Shown here piece after piece: positions 3,568 to 30,831 of a stretch of DNA of 64,000 nt (the first letter of the stretch is position 1; the number at the start of each line of letters is the position of its first letter). The stretch is from Breznakiella homolactica (GTDB lineage: Bacteria > Spirochaetota > Spirochaetia > Treponematales > Breznakiellaceae): NCBI RefSeq assembly GCF_016616095.2, contig NZ_CP067089.2, forward strand, positions 4,464,001 to 4,528,000, read 5' to 3'. Made by a program: the position numbers and the translations under genes. The notes beneath the pieces were generated by a model that searched no databases, was not told the DNA's origin, and worked only from the letters and a program-made list of their open reading frames with translations.

Positions 3568-5322
3568 ATGGAAGATACCAAACAATTCTGGAAAAAACGG
3601 ATAGCCGAAACCCTGACCGAACTGGCCGGAGAAAACGGATCCGGCACGGTTATCGACGTCTCGCAGGTAGTGGCTGAAGTCCCGCCGAAACCCGAACTTG
3701 GGGACCTGGGGTTCCCGATGTTCAGTTTTGCGAAAATCCTCAGGAAAGGCCCGCCCCAGATCGCGCAGATCCTGGCGGAAAAACTGTCCGGCAGTCCCGC
3801 TCCGCGGGGAACCGCCGCCGCGGAAGGACCCTACGTGAACATACGGCTCAGCCGGCCGGATGAATCATCCGCCCTTCTTGCGGCGGTGCTGGATGAGAGC
3901 GGCGGTTTCGGCAGGCCCGGAACCCTGGACGGTTCCAGGATCATGGTCGAATTTTCCAGTCCCAATACCAACAAGCCGCTCCACCTGGGCCATCTCAGGA
4001 ACGATGTGCTCGGGGAAAGCATTTCCCGGATCCTCTCGGCCTGCGGCGCGGAACTGCGCAAAGTCTGCATCATCAACGACCGGGGAGTCCATATCTGCAA
4101 ATCCATGCTCGCCTATAAAGAATACGGGGAAGGCAAAACCCCCGAGTCCGAAGGTATGAAGAGCGACCATTTTGTGGGCCATTGGTACGTCAAATTCCAC
4201 CAGATTAGCAAAGAGGATCCCACCGCGGAAGAACGGGCCCAGGAACTGCTCCGCAAGTGGGAAGCCGGTGACCCGGAAACCGTTGAATTATGGAAGAAGA
4301 TGAACGCATGGGCTGTGGATGGTATGAAGGAAACCTACCGGCGTACGGGTGTTTCCTTTGACCAGTATTATTTTGAAAGCCAGACGTACCTCCTTGGCAA
4401 GGATGAAGTCCTCAAGGGCCTCGAAGCGGGCCTCTTCTACAAGGCTGAGGACGGTTCGATCTGGGTGGACCTCACCGAGGAAAAACTCGATAAAAAAGTG
4501 CTTCTCCGCAAGGACGGTACATCTCTTTACATTACCCAGGATATAGGCACCGCCATATCCCGGCAGAGGGACTGGCAATTTGACCGGCTCGTCTATGTGG
4601 TTGGTTCCGAACAGCAGTACCATTTCCAGGTGCTTTTCAAGCTGCTCGAAAAACTCGGATTCCTCTGGGCAAAGGACCTGTACCATCTGTCCTACGGTAT
4701 GGTCAATCTGCCCGACGGGAAGATGAAGAGCCGGGAAGGGACCGTGGTGGACGCCGACGACCTTCTGGATAAACTCAGCGCCATGGCCCTTGAGGAAATC
4801 CGCCAGAAGGACCGGGAAGCCGCCGTGGGGGACAGCGGGGACGTGGCTGAAAAAATTGCCCTGGGAGCGCTCCATTATTACCTGCTCCAGGTTTCTCCCT
4901 CTAAGGATATGCTTTTTAACCCGCAGGAATCCCTGGCGTTCAACGGCAATACCGGCCCGTATCTCCAGTACATGGGGGCCCGGATTTCCTCAATGCTGAA
5001 AAAAGAAGCCGGCAGTTCCGCCGCCGCTGGCGCTGTAAAGCCCGAACTCCTTTCCGGGGACGCCGAATGGGAGCTTGTAAAGACCCTGGGCAATTACCCC
5101 GCCGCGGTGGCGGAAGCCGCCGCGAAGATGGACCCATCCCTTATGGCGGTATATCTCTACGATCTTTCCAAAGGTTTCAGCCGGTTCTACCATGACTGTC
5201 CCATCCTGAACGCGGAAACCCCGGATCTGGCGGCCACCCGGCTTGCCCTGTCCCGGGGGGTGCTCCGGGTCCTCCGGGACGCCCTGGAACTGATCTGTAT
5301 ACCCTTCCTGGAATCAATGTAG
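3568..5322 (+). CDS. argS: Arginyl-tRNA synthetase
   Basis: A class I aminoacyl-tRNA synthetase of 584 residues that charges tRNA-Arg. It has an N-terminal Add-1-type domain, then the HIGH-like motif in PNTNKPLHLGHLRND (about residue 138). Next is the substrate and editing-insert region, then GMVNLPDGKMKSREGTVV, which stands in for the KMSKS loop as is usual for ArgRS. The C-terminal anticodon-binding helical domain includes FNGNTGPYLQYMGAR. AAGGA precedes the ATG. The length is normal and no key motif is missing. A palindromic element begins about 10 bp after the stop. Confidence 0.97.
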   Translation: MEDTKQFWKKRIAETLTELAGENGSGTVIDVSQVVAEVPPKPELGDLGFPMFSFAKILRKGPPQIAQILAEKLSGSPAPRGTAAAEGPYVNIRLSRPDESSALLAAVLDESGGFGRPGTLDGSRIMVEFSSPNTNKPLHLGHLRNDVLGESISRILSACGAELRKVCIINDRGVHICKSMLAYKEYGEGKTPESEGMKSDHFVGHWYVKFHQISKEDPTAEERAQELLRKWEAGDPETVELWKKMNAWAVDGMKETYRRTGVSFDQYYFESQTYLLGKDEVLKGLEAGLFYKAEDGSIWVDLTEEKLDKKVLLRKDGTSLYITQDIGTAISRQRDWQFDRLVYVVGSEQQYHFQVLFKLLEKLGFLWAKDLYHLSYGMVNLPDGKMKSREGTVVDADDLLDKLSAMALEEIRQKDREAAVGDSGDVAEKIALGALHYYLLQVSPSKDMLFNPQESLAFNGNTGPYLQYMGARISSMLKKEAGSSAAAGAVKPELLSGDAEWELVKTLGNYPAAVAEAAAKMDPSLMAVYLYDLSKGFSRFYHDCPILNAETPDLAATRLALSRGVLRVLRDALELICIPFLESM

Positions 5323-5332
5323 CACAACCGCC

Positions 5333-5533
5333 GCCGCAGGGCACCGGCGGTATGGAACGCACCGAAGCATGGTGGTGTAACGGAACAGGGGGTCCTGCCG
5401 CTGAGCACAGGGGTTGGCTCCTCGTCGGCCTTCGGCCTAGAAAGTCGCTCAACCCCTGTGCTCAGCGGCACCCCGCGCTGCCGTCACAGCCCCATGCTTC
5501 GATGCCTTTTCCCGGCAGTGGGTGCCCTGCGGC
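5333..5533 (-). repeat. Nested palindromic element A/B, locus 1
   Basis: Four nested layers are visible. The outer locus-specific arms are GCCGCAGGGCACC (5333-5345) and its complement at 5521-5533. The conserved A motif GAAGCATGG (5364-5372) faces CCATGCTTC (5492-5500). A perfect 20-bp locus-specific inverted repeat, GCCGCTGAGCACAGGGGTTG, lies at 5397-5416 and 5450-5469. The conserved core B occupies 5417-5449 (GCTCCTCGTCGGCC, then GGCCTAGAAAGTCGCT). Core orientation is opposite to locus 2, so the element is given on the minus strand by analogy. Confidence 0.85.
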
Positions 5534-5704
5534 GGGCGGCCTTGTTGGGGAGGGGTCGGTGCGGGAGGACGATGTGTATTGGGCGCAGCGCCTGAGCCGG
5601 GATTGGTTACCGCCCCCCGGACCCCGCTATGGCAGCGCCACCCGGTCACAGCCCCAAACCCTCCCGGAAACAGCCTTCGCCACCCAACACCCCCGAAAAA
5701 GCAG
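5534..5704. other. Gene-free, G+C-rich joint between two facing palindromic elements
   Basis: No credible gene is present. The sequence is rich in C/G runs and weak inverted repeats. Its right end (CCTCCCGG ... CCCCCGAAAAAGCAG) resembles the sequence left of locus 4 (CCTCCCAT ... CCCCGCCAAAGCAG, 28611-28635). Its left end, read on the other strand, shows partial similarity to the same flank. It therefore looks like the flanks of two oppositely oriented element copies abutting each other. Confidence 0.5.
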
Positions 5705-5900
5705 GGCGCCTGCATTACACCCGAGAACCGGCACAGAAGCATGATGTAAAAAGGTACCACGGGGTGTCAGAGGATTACGGGTATGAGCGACTTTCGAGGC
5801 CGCAGGCCGACACGGAGCCATACCCGTAATCCTCTGACAGGACCCCCGGACCTCGTTCCCCCATGCTTCTGTGCCGCCTGCCGAATATAATGCAGGCGCC
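5705..5900 (+). repeat. Nested palindromic element A/B, locus 2
   Basis: Outer locus-specific arms GGCGCCTGCATTA (5705-5717) and TAATGCAGGCGCC (5888-5900) are perfect. Conserved A motif GGCACAGAAGCATG (5730-5743) faces CATGCTTCTGTGCC (5862-5875). A perfect 21-bp inner arm pair (5765-5785 and 5819-5839) is unrelated to that of locus 1. Core B lies between them in reverse orientation (5786-5818: AGCGACTTTCGAGGCC, then GGCCGACACGGAGC). It ends 13 bp before the -35 box of the rplU promoter. Confidence 0.87.
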
Positions 5901-5913
5901 CTGATTCCCCGTA

Positions 5914-5943
5914 TTGACCTTGGAAACTTTTTCGGTGTATAAA
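5914..5943 (+). promoter_or_regulatory. Candidate sigma-70 promoter of the rplU operon
   Basis: TTGACC (5914-5919) and TATAAA (5938-5943) are separated by 18 nt. The predicted leader is about 27 nt and carries AAGGA upstream of the rplU ATG at 5977. Confidence 0.6.
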
Positions 5944-26600: not shown

Positions 26601-28127
26601 CTAATTTGAAGCCCAGAATATGCTGATGAATGTCTCCATGAAATTATCCTGCAGTTTGTCACTGTTCATAACGAGGGTTCTCATATCCTGTTCCGTATAA
26701 TACGGAACCATGTACGGGTAGGATGATTCGATAATACCCGTGGTCGATTCGTCCGCGGAACTTTCTTCGGTGGGGTATAAAACCAGTACGGTATTTCCCA
26801 TGACCACCGGTTCCGATACCGTATGGAGCGGCGTGCCGAACGCCACAGCCCAGAAACGTTCATTGGAAACCGCGCCGGACAATTCCGCAATCGAGGCGGA
26901 CGACAAGGTTTTGAACAGATCGTTGCTGCCGTAGTTTATCGGGACAGGGCCGAAATTACGGGCTTCCAGGCCTTTTGCCGCGGCGGCGGTCTGGAATGTA
27001 CCCGACTGGGTCAGGGACGCGAGGCTCTGTGCCTGGCCGATAAGCCAGTCCTCAACCCGGCCGCGTTCAAATTCAAGTATATAGGACCTGATTTTGCCAA
27101 GCAGTGTCGCGTCCGCCGTATCCGCCCTCCGGACCGGTTCCTCGCTCCGGAAAAACGCCCAGCCCGAAGGAACCTTAATCACGGCGCTCAGTTCGCCCTT
27201 GGGCAGGTTGATTACCTGTTCCCGGGCCGCCTCATCGGGTATTTCCGAGGAAAGCTCGTAAGCCATTTTGAGTCCCATGTTGCCCCGCTGGTCAGCCAGG
27301 GAATCCTGGGAATGGGTGGACGCGGCATCCTCGAAGGTCATGGTTCCGTTTGTCACCGAATTAAGGACCTGCTTGGCTTCCCGCTCACTGGAGGTGATGG
27401 TTATTTTTGAAAGCTGGGTCACCCTGAAAAGGTCGGGATTCTGTTCCGCGAAGGCGGCGACTTCCGTCTCGGGATACATGGTGAAGGGAAACGCCGCCAT
27501 TTCAAAACGCCGCTCAGGGGATGCCATGGATTTAATAAACCGTGTTTCCCCGGCAGGAACCCGCAGTCCGCTGATATCATTCCAGTACCGTTCCTCGGTT
27601 ATGCTGTCCTGGACACTCTTCCAGAGGCTCATCCGGGATGAATTGTCCATCTGGCGGTACAGGGCAACGGAGAACCGTCCGTTCTCCTGAAATTCGGGGA
27701 GTTCCGCCACCCGCCGGTCAACCAGGGTTTCCGGCGCGGTGTACCCCGCATCCTTCATCGTTTTAAGCACCGCGGTATGAACCACGGTTGCCTCAAATGC
27801 GGTCCGCCATATCTGGTAGGAGGCAAACTGGTAATTCTGCTCGGTAACGGAATTCTGATAGTACCGGGCGATATATTCCTGCTGATTGGCAAAATAGTTC
27901 TTAGGAACATAGTTAATGGGAACACCGTCATAGGATCCAAAGGTCAGCGAACCGGATTTGCCCATTTCCGGTGCTATAGCCGGAAGAAATACAAAAGCAA
28001 TGACAACGATGACAAGGATCAGGATAGTCCCGATAAAGACCAGCGGGTTCGCCTTGAAGCGGCGGATAAATTCGGACTGTCCTGGATTTTCTTGGTCGCT
28101 TTTCGTTTTTTTTCCCTTGGAAACCAT
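26601..28127 (-). CDS. SurA/PpiD-like membrane-anchored peptidyl-prolyl isomerase
   Basis: A protein of 508 residues with a cytoplasmic basic N-terminus, one transmembrane helix (residues 31-51, VFIGTILILVIVVIAFVFLP) and a large periplasmic part. The SurA_N-like chaperone region is followed near residues 230-330 by a parvulin domain (LSKITITSSEREAKQVLN, MTFEDAASTHSQDSLADQRGNMG). A second helical domain ends in SIFWASN. Its likely role is folding of exported proteins, as for PpiD. Element C copy 3 lies about 100 bp upstream. Confidence 0.85.
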   Translation of the reverse strand: MVSKGKKTKSDQENPGQSEFIRRFKANPLVFIGTILILVIVVIAFVFLPAIAPEMGKSGSLTFGSYDGVPINYVPKNYFANQQEYIARYYQNSVTEQNYQFASYQIWRTAFEATVVHTAVLKTMKDAGYTAPETLVDRRVAELPEFQENGRFSVALYRQMDNSSRMSLWKSVQDSITEERYWNDISGLRVPAGETRFIKSMASPERRFEMAAFPFTMYPETEVAAFAEQNPDLFRVTQLSKITITSSEREAKQVLNSVTNGTMTFEDAASTHSQDSLADQRGNMGLKMAYELSSEIPDEAAREQVINLPKGELSAVIKVPSGWAFFRSEEPVRRADTADATLLGKIRSYILEFERGRVEDWLIGQAQSLASLTQSGTFQTAAAAKGLEARNFGPVPINYGSNDLFKTLSSASIAELSGAVSNERFWAVAFGTPLHTVSEPVVMGNTVLVLYPTEESSADESTTGIIESSYPYMVPYYTEQDMRTLVMNSDKLQDNFMETFISIFWASN

Positions 28128-28230
28128 AGAGTTTTATACCTCTCAACTATGTATTGACTGTAAATTCGGTATCCGTACGGCATGGTACGGCGGTATTACA
28201 GGATACCATTTCGTAAAAAAGGCGTCAATG

Positions 28231-28560
28231 ATGCGGGGGAGCACCGGGTCTGACAAGCCGGAAAGCACCCGAGGAGAACGGTGCCGCGGGTCCTGGCACG
28301 GAAAATGGCGTATGGCTCCTCGTCGGCCTAAAGGCCTCGAAAGTCGCTCATACGCCATTTTCCATGCCACCCGGTTTACCATTATGACCGGGTGCTTTCC
28401 GGCTTAACCGGCCCGGTGCTGCCCTGCCGCGCGGGCTGCTCCCCCTCGCTCCAGCCTTGCCGCATTATATGTGGATTTTTGCGCTGCAAAACTCCTAAAA
28501 GACTTGGCGCCAAAGGCGGCAAGTCTTACGCTGCCCCCACTTCGGGTTCCGGCGGCGGCA
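28231..28560 (-). repeat. Composite intergenic element C, copy 3, carrying a nested B palindrome
   Basis: Read on the minus strand, it starts GGAACCCGAAGTGGGGGCAG, continues with the GACTTGCCGCC/GGCGCCAAGTC hairpin, AGGAGTTTTGC and CGGCAAGGCTGGAGCGAGGG. It ends in GACCCGGTGCTCCCCCGCAT. The palindrome arms GGGTGCTTTCCGGCTT (28390-28405) and its complement (28255-28270) are near perfect. Unlike copies 1 and 2, its centre holds a whole B unit (28294-28369). Confidence 0.87.
28294..28369 (+). repeat. B palindrome nested in element C copy 3 (locus 3)
   Basis: Locus-specific 21-bp arms (28294-28314 and 28349-28369, one mismatch) enclose core B (28315-28348: GCTCCTCGTCGGCCT, then AGGCCTCGAAAGTCGCT). 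The arms share nothing with those at loci 1 and 2, while the core is almost identical. Confidence 0.88.
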
Positions 28561-28636
28561 CTGCCGGAGTCGCCTGATCCCGGCCTCCGCATCACCCCGA
28601 ACCGTCCTCCCATACCCGGCACCCCGCCAAAGCAGT

Positions 28637-28747
28637 GCATCCGTAGTAACAGAGAATTGGCACAGAAGCATGGTGTGCTGCCGGTAACGACGGGCCCCCG
28701 TATCCGGTATCTCCATGCTTCTGTGCCGTGCCCGATACTACGGATGC
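28637..28747 (+). repeat. Palindromic element A, locus 4, overlapping the end of the 5'-nucleotidase gene
   Basis: Outer arms GCATCCGTAGTA (28637-28648) and TACTACGGATGC (28736-28747). The right arm encodes the last residues and stop codon of the minus-strand nucleotidase gene. Conserved A motif GGCACAGAAGCATGG (28659-28673) faces CCATGCTTCTGTGCC (28713-28727). The inside is a short imperfect stem instead of core B. The left flank CCCCGCCAAAGCAG matches that of locus 2. Confidence 0.85.
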
Positions 28748-30831
28748 CCTGCGGCCTCAATAAAGACCAGATTGTTGATACCGGCAAAGTTATCAATACA
28801 GGTTTCAAATACGCGGCCGTGTCCGGTCAGGCGCAGTTCCGCCGGTCCGTTGGGCAGGCTGTTCAGGGTAAACGATCCGCTGCTGTCCGTGGTAACGCTT
28901 CCGGTTTCCTTTCCGTTAAGCGTAACCCGGTACTGTACTCCCGCCACAGGCCGGGCTCCTTCTTTCTGCATATCGTAGCCGGAAAGTTTCATGATGCTGT
29001 CGGAGGACGCTCCGGGGCTTGCCGCCACGGTCCCTTTGAAATCCCAGCTGGAATTTTTGTAGGCGCTTCCCAGGATGGTGCACCGGCCCTGGTTCAGGGG
29101 ATATGCAATGCCGTCTCTGTTTTCGGGCAAAGTCATAAGGTACTGAATATACCGGATCGTGGCCTGGGTGTTGGAAATATCCTCGCCGATTATTTTGTTC
29201 TGGTAATCGGTCAGCAGGAAGTATCCGTCGCCCCCGGACATTTCAAAACTGAGGACCCCAAGCACGATTTTCCTGGGATCATCTTCGGAAAGCCGCGCTC
29301 CGTTGTCGCAGTCGAGATAGATATTTTTTACCCGCCTTCCCGGCACCGTAACCTGCCCGAAGGTGGGACTGGTGTTGATTTCATCCAGCACCTGTGCGGT
29401 TTCGGATATGTCATATTCAAACCGCATTCCCGAAGCGTTGAAAAACCGCCCGTCGGCTCCCTGGACATAGCCTGTCTGGCCGTCCTGTCCGGCTATCTTG
29501 CTCACGCCGTTTTCGATCATTTTGTACAGATCCGATGCCGGCAGGGCAATGTATACAGTACCCTGGTCAAAGGGCAGTACCTTGAAAACACTGCCGATGG
29601 TTATTTCTCCCGCGGGATGGCTGGCCCGGATTCCGCCGCCGCCGTTGTACCCGATAATTACGTATTTTGACGGATCCAGGTATTCGGTTCCCTCAAAGTA
29701 ATTTCTTGTCTGCCAAAGTTTTGCGTCGGTCACAAAACTCGCCATATTGGATTCGCCCTTCCTGGATACGCGTTCCCCGTAGACTTCGCCGCCGTACATA
29801 CCGTTCCGGAATTTCCCGATTACCGTGCCGCTGGCTTCCGCAAGGTAGCTGCTCATCTCATCCACCAGCTCCTTTGTGGAAGGTCTGGGCCTGTAATTCG
29901 CCCGGGCATCCGCGGCGTCAATATAGGATGATGTCAGGGTTTTCGCCCCATTTCTGCTGAAGGATATGGTTACCTTTCCCAGGTATTTAAGGGCCGTTCC
30001 GGTGGATACAATCATCGCGCCTTTTTCGTACATCGCCCCCGATCCCATGAGTTCCTGGTGGGCGTGTCCGTCAATGATAAGGTCGATATCCCCTTCATTC
30101 AGCAGGGACATCACGGCGGATGCCTTGTTTTCGTCATCCGAGGAATTATCCATCCCGCAGTGGGCGACACAGATTACCGCATCCATTTTCCCGTGTTCCG
30201 CCCGGATGGTATCCACCGAACGCTTCGCGGCGGCGGCAACATCCGTAAAGGTCAGGCCCTTGAGGCGCGCGGGGTTTGACTTGGTCAGGGTCTCCGGGGT
30301 GGATATTCCGAAAACAGCTATTTTTTTCCCCGCCACTTCGAAAATTTTATAGGGTGTCAGGAAATTAACGAGATTTTCCGAATCCCGGGACTCACCGGTG
30401 GCGGCTATATTCGCTCCCATGACGGGAAAATCCGCCTGCTGAAGAATTTCGAGGAGCTGGACCTGGCCTTTGCCGAATTCATGATTCCCCAGGGTCATCA
30501 TATCGTACCCCGCGGAATTCATCATGCGGACAATACTCCGTCCCTCGTCCCGGTTTGCGGCCATGGTGCCGTCCAGTATATCCCCCGCGTCCAGCAGCAG
30601 GCTGTTGGGGGTCGCCATTTTTATTCCGCCGATATATTCCATACCGACGCAGGTTTTTTCCGTACCGATAACCGATCCGTGCACATCGTTGGTGTGGTAT
30701 ACGGTTATTTCTTCCGCCGACCCCGACGCAAGAGCCAGGGGTGAACCCGCCAGGAACAGTATGCCCAGCATCAGGATCAGGCTCATTTTGAACAGTGATT
30801 CCCGAGCGGGAATCATCCACTTTCGTTTCAT
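28738..30831 (-). CDS. 5'-nucleotidase / 2',3'-cyclic phosphodiesterase family protein (UshA-like)
   Basis: An exported metallophosphoesterase of 697 residues. The signal peptide has a long basic start and ends near PLALASGSA. The metal-binding motifs are YHTNDVHG, DAGDILDG, LGNHEFGKG, and IDGHAHQE. The C-terminal 5'-nucleotidase domain (about residues 350-560) recognises the nucleotide. A last domain of about 100 residues (VQYRVTLNGKETGSVTTDSS) looks like a beta-sandwich, carboxypeptidase-regulatory or Ig-like. The role is release of phosphate and nucleosides from nucleotides in the periplasm or outside. GGAGG precedes the ATG. The stop codon lies in a palindromic element arm. Confidence 0.9.
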   Translation of the reverse strand: MKRKWMIPARESLFKMSLILMLGILFLAGSPLALASGSAEEITVYHTNDVHGSVIGTEKTCVGMEYIGGIKMATPNSLLLDAGDILDGTMAANRDEGRSIVRMMNSAGYDMMTLGNHEFGKGQVQLLEILQQADFPVMGANIAATGESRDSENLVNFLTPYKIFEVAGKKIAVFGISTPETLTKSNPARLKGLTFTDVAAAAKRSVDTIRAEHGKMDAVICVAHCGMDNSSDDENKASAVMSLLNEGDIDLIIDGHAHQELMGSGAMYEKGAMIVSTGTALKYLGKVTISFSRNGAKTLTSSYIDAADARANYRPRPSTKELVDEMSSYLAEASGTVIGKFRNGMYGGEVYGERVSRKGESNMASFVTDAKLWQTRNYFEGTEYLDPSKYVIIGYNGGGGIRASHPAGEITIGSVFKVLPFDQGTVYIALPASDLYKMIENGVSKIAGQDGQTGYVQGADGRFFNASGMRFEYDISETAQVLDEINTSPTFGQVTVPGRRVKNIYLDCDNGARLSEDDPRKIVLGVLSFEMSGGDGYFLLTDYQNKIIGEDISNTQATIRYIQYLMTLPENRDGIAYPLNQGRCTILGSAYKNSSWDFKGTVAASPGASSDSIMKLSGYDMQKEGARPVAGVQYRVTLNGKETGSVTTDSSGSFTLNSLPNGPAELRLTGHGRVFETCIDNFAGINNLVFIEAAGHP

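Follow-up and report, generated by a model that had tools for sequence, protein, structure and literature searches.

A probable family of mobile hairpins with matched-pair stems and fixed loops, lodged beside host promoters in Breznakiella homolactica

The stretch of DNA analysed here (the window, 64,000 nt, positions 4464001-4528000 of the single-contig, 4,646,109-bp genome of Breznakiella homolactica) carries the same short core, core B, at three places, each time set in long inverted arms that differ from place to place, which raises the question of whether such units are structured RNAs, mobile hairpins or cis-acting signals of the genes around them. Pattern scans confirmed core B at 5417-5449 (+), 5786-5818 (-) and 28315-28348 (+), as reported in a preliminary description of the sequence, together with its inverted arms of 20-21 bp: the arms at 5396-5416 and 5450-5470 (+) form a perfect inverted repeat of 21 bp, as do those at 5765-5785 and 5819-5839 (-), and 28294-28314 is complementary to 28349-28369 (+) at 20 of 21 positions. 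Core B is the tip of the hairpin in each case, consisting in the first unit of a conserved internal loop and a short stem. The extent of 5390-5470 first given for this unit was too short. Arms and core belong to hairpin rods at approximately 5333-5537 (B1), 5708-5902 (B2) and 28231-28427 (rod A), which contain further nested paired segments, are grouped in double elements, and fold as whole units 10-13 SD below dinucleotide shuffles (z = -9.9, -13.2 and -11.8, respectively).

The first double element lies between argS (arginyl-tRNA synthetase, 3568-5322, +; Pfam PF00750/PF05746), whose stop codon borders it, and rplU (ribosomal protein L21, 5977-6288, +; PF00829). Rod B1 (+; covariance model match 126.9 bits), with an outer part of type B, begins about 11 nt past the argS stop codon at 5322. 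It is followed by a spacer (5538-5707), delimited from sequence and pair architecture, and by the convergent type B rod B2 (-; 127.1 bits), whose outer end is about 11 nt off the -35 box of the rplU promoter (TTGACC-N18-TATAAA, 5914-5943, +). The third copy, rod A (+; 111.8 bits), has an outer part of type A, begins with ATGCGGGGGAGCAC, and is flush with the -35 box of a host promoter on the opposite strand (TTGACG-N17-TATCCT, 28200-28228, -) that serves a SurA/PPIase-like gene (26601-28127, -). Downstream of it lie the type A 3' module, GCTGCTCCCCCTCGCTCCA-[variable hairpin]-TTACGCTGCCCCCACTTCGGGTTCC (28434-28550, +), common to other genera, and a short convergent type B rod lacking core B (28632-28752, -), recognised by its inverted repeats and sequence, at the stop codon of a phosphoesterase-like gene (28738-30831, -).

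These units belong to a large family. A strict core pattern matched 38 exact places genome-wide, against none for the reversed control, and a relaxed one recovered the core, within matched arms, at 66 such places. R1, a covariance model that covers the central 125 nt and was built from 63 copies, gave at least 150 matches in this genome and about 80 distinct rods in 864 kb (the window and an uninterrupted 800 kb). Single rods measure about 190-210 nt and usually join, two facing each other, in a double element some 450-570 bp long. Rods have one of two outer types: type A starts with (A)TGCGGGGGAGCAC and carries the 3' module, GCTGCTCCCCCTCGCTCCA-[hairpin]-TTACGCTACCCCCACTTCGGGTTCC, and type B starts near CAGGGCGCCTGCATTA and includes GCACAGAAGCATGG. 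Common to both is an inner motif, GGGTCCTG-[arm]-tip-[arm]-CACCC, with fixed internal loops such as GGGUCCUG opposite CACCC. The tips are exchangeable: some rods have core B, others a form of about 98 nt containing ATGAAAAAAATNCCGC..GCGGTATTTCTTTTCAT, and others core B to which a GCGYGTCC..GGACACGAC hairpin is added. Rods with a neighbour at less than 700 bp usually converge on it (21/26), most of these having starts about 290-400 bp apart. At G000:2785790-2786173 three partial or whole rods, two of them ending GAAAACCG, stand in tandem, apparently through local duplication. Rods also occur about 2-5 kb apart within or beside tandem RHS-like gene cassettes of this genome (L032:2162-6541) and, in a relative (G028, L075), other tandem polymorphic gene cassettes; they may aid cassette exchange there.

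The rods differ from one another in a highly constrained manner. Over the 63 copies, 97.7% of base-pair cells are paired and 20 of 34 pairs show double changes; the covariation score is 0.464, compared to 0.121 for shuffled and at most 0.088 for slid alignments, and double-changed cells number 351 against 97 (shuffled) and 23-59 (slid). The covariance search itself did not come back empty but recovered additional copies in which the arms match and yet differ from copy to copy, and the structure-constrained unit originally proposed, with conserved unpaired nucleotides and covarying helices, is borne out. The arms are not unrelated, as had been thought from three loci: those of the 63 copies follow a common positional consensus, in which some pairs are nearly fixed (C-G in 58/63 copies, A-T in 58/63, G-C in 61/63, T-A in 59/63) and others vary in matched pairs. 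The arms of different copies are thus homologous, not random.

Conserved internal loops, tip modules and covarying helices are also what a multicopy family of trans-acting structured RNAs would display. Such a family is improbable, since there was no Rfam match, promoters directed into the rods were not noticed with any consistency, and the strong ones that adjoin the rods point outward. An Rfam 15 scan of the window returned tRNAs only, and the copies of one relative gave no Rfam match above the gathering score.

The mode of arm variation bears on two further explanations. Mismatches affect 40 of 1152 arm pairs, and on the + strand consist of 10 G.T, 24 A.C and 6 others. Among the 40 closest copy pairs, which are non-independent and give suggestive counts only, one-sided differences comprise 24 transitions and 1 transversion, versus 20 transitions and 26 transversions for matched two-sided differences. 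These spectra suggest that simultaneous renewal of both arms fits better than stepwise compensation of a + strand RNA through G.U pairs. They bear on the proposal that the rods are cis-acting transcription elements, i.e. bidirectional terminators or insulators that separate a stop codon from the promoter after it and act as RNA within read-through transcripts, with ordinary compensatory selection on the stems. Strong covariation, fixed loops and very stable folds agree with a cis role, but the 10 G.T against 24 A.C mismatches lack the excess of G.U expected of an RNA helix read from the + strand, and the contrast between matched changes (26 transversions, 20 transitions) and unmatched ones (24 transitions, 1 transversion) is unlike stepwise compensation through G.U. 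Alternatively, the arms could be kept complementary without selection on function, by repair templated on the hairpin (quasipalindrome correction) or by fold-back copying, in which one arm is rewritten from the other and the two drift together, the loops being uncorrectable in this way. The near-perfection of the arms, the scarcity of G.U intermediates and the transversion-rich matched changes all point in this direction, and templated correction is compatible with a mobile element. The fixed loops and nearly fixed arm pairs nevertheless require selection or homogenisation, and several variants of 115-117 nt, as well as the rod at L052, retain mismatched arms. We regard this explanation as possible but somewhat doubtful.

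Several rods depart from the usual arrangement. The one at L052:2823-2853 is chimeric, with a left arm identical to that at L056 and a different right arm, and its arms are therefore mismatched. At L019:1831-1861 and G000:2863303-2863428, core and arms have the opposite orientation to the outer rod, as would follow from an in-place flip of the inner hairpin. In the 115-117-nt variants (G000:2131061, 2263250, 2722455, 2726990, 2746892 and 2843620) the right half has GACCC opposite GGGTC, such that the usual bulge pairs, and its arm mismatches the left arm.

Of 200 genomes searched in the family, probably Breznakiellaceae, 31 have R1 matches, this one included; the copies of the other 30 are weaker and show the outer motif but lack core B. 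In a class sample of 297, R1 gave a single weak match outside the family. Elsewhere, core B matched nothing in the GTDB contigs, the viral contigs and the 58 relatives searched, and the type A element had no match in phage or plasmid records. The 3' module was found in 18 of the 200 family genomes, against none for the reversed control; G094 has 16 copies and G013 has 20, and the copies of these two genomes are more alike. In three genomes (G013, G118 and G011; L133-L139, L141 and L142) it occurs by itself, as a minimal unit some 80 nt long, GGGGGAAGCCTCCCCCTCGCTCCAGCC-[hairpin]-GGTCTTCCGCTACCCCCTCT. Elements of G094 have the ends ACGGTCAACANGTTACGG...CCGTAACCGGTTGACCG, and 5 of 11 lie between direct repeats of 7-16 bp, evidence that they are mobile there.

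Comparison of orthologous sites shows that a rod comes or goes as a whole. Measured from where the argS alignment ends, rplU starts 80-118 nt away in six relatives but 658 nt away here, where the double hairpin of about 570 bp occupies the gap. In the clearest relatives (L185-L187) only 7-14 nt separate the argS stop codon from TTGAC, and the double element is thus an insertion. The interval between rluA and the next gene (geneX) carries a rod in G145 and none in its genus-mates G144, G149 and G018, and the TTGACA promoter is kept in G145, G144 and G149. Empty sites, the usual mark of MITE insertion, were thus found at argS-rplU and at rluA-geneX, and in these comparisons the rods came or went flush with a pre-existing promoter. 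A rod is found at the same place in G020, and the rluA locus is occupied in two genera. This counts in favour of a cis role, although the rod-free orthologous sites of close relatives count against it. Vertical inheritance with compensation was an attractive reading of this locus but was rejected in view of the three genus-mates without a rod; two independent insertions, or losses, fit equally well. Downstream of the rluA-like gene, two further genomes (L150, L155) have long hairpins of another kind, whose sequences are apparently unrelated.

The empty sites lend partial support to one half of a suggestion in the preliminary description, that of a mobile hairpin, in that the units are inserted DNA, but not to its other half, that insertion makes an inverted copy of the target. 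Arms that are perfect and yet vary from copy to copy were in keeping with inverted copying. Yet the arms share a consensus over 63 copies and resemble those in other genera, an empty argS-rplU gap of 7-14 nt cannot supply an arm of 20 nt, which excludes the process at this site, and the duplications in G094 are direct, as in ordinary transposons. Inverted target copying is accordingly very hard to credit. Among the convergent pairs of this genome, target duplication did not exceed the permuted expectation, and the copies are strongly diverged from one another, giving no sign of recent transposition here; both points weigh against the mobile reading.

A further regularity concerns promoters. 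An outward promoter scoring at least 9/12 was found at 32 of 53 type A 5' ends, compared to about 10% of shuffles, and in half of the well-scoring ends the -35 box starts 5-6 nt from GGGGGAGC. TTGAC occurs within 30 nt outward of 26 of 82 elements and on the inward strand of none (0/82), in a count that left out 30 of 112 elements with unclassifiable end motifs. Type A rods thus abut outward -35 boxes genome-wide, and these boxes belong to the host. The rplU promoter is conserved family-wide, including in relatives without the element, and its -35 box is therefore the host's own; relatives without the rod also conserve the promoter of the SurA/PPIase-like gene, CATTGACG-N17-TATNNT. That TTGAC might be the element's own end, as G094 suggested, was rejected here, the same -35 box being conserved at empty orthologous sites. 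Type B rods, for their part, often begin near the stop codon of the preceding gene. Surviving copies, being flush with the -35 box and often with the stop codon before it, leave gene and promoter unharmed.

Flush placement could reflect an insertion preference, or mean that harmless or insulating insertions are the ones that survived; the sharp peak in distance would favour a more specific cause than survival alone. It could also reflect a regulatory role instead, and the position of rods between stop codon and -35 box agrees with cis-acting elements of the kind considered above, which on balance we regard as unlikely. A stronger form of insertion preference would be a promoter-targeting hairpin that integrates flush upstream of sigma-70 -35 boxes and rewrites its stems at every move through error-prone fold-back copying, giving new perfect arms around an unchanged recognition core. 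Ty3 is a promoter-directed retroelement, and a hairpin of this type would be its bacterial counterpart, a rather speculative proposal that we consider unlikely to hold.

Alongside the observed copy number, structure, matched-pair variation, gain or loss between related genomes and host ownership of the -35 boxes, the interpretation that we favour, with a probability of roughly 0.6, is that the rods are a non-autonomous, REPIN- or MITE-like family of mobile hairpins that have kept their folded form and become lodged in intergenic gaps flush with host -35 boxes. The element would spread by insertion, mobilised in trans by a putative enzyme that most likely recognises the folded form as a single-stranded DNA hairpin, DNA being a better candidate than RNA. 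Such recognition would hold the loops fixed and let the stems drift in matched pairs only, the shape being maintained by selection or by templated correction of the arms. Survivors would then occupy the gaps between stop codon and promoter, flush with the -35 box and often also with the preceding stop codon, possibly for the reasons given above.

Two types of enzyme were considered for this role. The only REP-type Y1 transposase gene (PF01797), at 2483369, has no R1 match in 2470001-2490000 and no similar inverted repeats were found beside it; a RAYT as mobiliser was rejected, the sole RAYT-type gene being unlinked to rods. In the relative G028, genes for Rpn-type putative transposases (PF04754, TIGR01784) lie directly beside rods (L075:14392-15522, L077:2230-3165). 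TIGR01784 gave only weak or partial matches in B. homolactica, and the rods of other relatives adjoin ordinary genes, for which reasons this mobiliser was also set aside. Searches of this genome with TIGR01784 and PF01797 thus gave no linked gene for an autonomous partner.

The rods share features with several known systems. REP units are about 20 nt long and REPINs about 70-100 nt. REPINs are REP doublets that form hairpins and are thought to be mobilised by RAYT transposases, and their variable spacer is likewise base-paired and shows compensatory changes (PMC3116915). Similarities lie in the many extragenic copies per genome and, to some extent, in the inverted doublets and the combination of conserved recognised parts with a variable pairing spacer. 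In the rods, conserved GGGTCCTG/CACCC flanks enclose variable pairing arms but also a conserved tip, so that the conserved parts include the tip and not the ends only. The rods are also longer, at about 190-210 nt (double elements about 450-570 bp), have several fixed internal loops and exchangeable tips, lie flush against -35 boxes, and do not flank the sole RAYT-type gene of this genome. They resemble bacterial MITEs as short non-coding inserted elements in many copies, and the G094 elements do so in their terminal repeats and direct flanking duplications, but here no autonomous partner (TIGR01784, PF01797) was found and no target duplication above expectation detected, and rod stems vary around fixed loops. 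Modularity, intergenic location, hairpin formation and proximity to genes recall the BOX elements of pneumococci, which are modular intergenic hairpin repeats near genes, at the level of general description. Integron attC sites, for comparison, have the core sites RYYYAAC/GTTRRRY and a linked integrase; no cores of this kind were noticed where rods begin or end. The repetitive hairpin elements (RHE) of sponge mitochondria are likewise mobile-looking intergenic hairpins with double forms, but their stems are conserved and their loops vary (PMC2800124), the reverse of the variable stems and fixed loops of the rods. No named repeat or RNA family tested accounts for the rods, and a literature search found no paper describing these hairpin elements. 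Their size, modular tips, stem-variable and loop-fixed evolution and promoter-flush placement are unusual among bacterial mobile hairpin repeats.

If this interpretation is correct, well over 100 natural variants of one fold in a single genome would make it possible to separate recognised bases from those that merely pair. Promoter-directed insertion in bacteria becomes open to test through the flush placement at host -35 boxes, as does templated renewal of the arms through the two mutation spectra, of matched and unmatched changes. The elements would then represent a large, apparently undescribed share of the intergenic DNA in this lineage of termite-gut-type spirochaetes.
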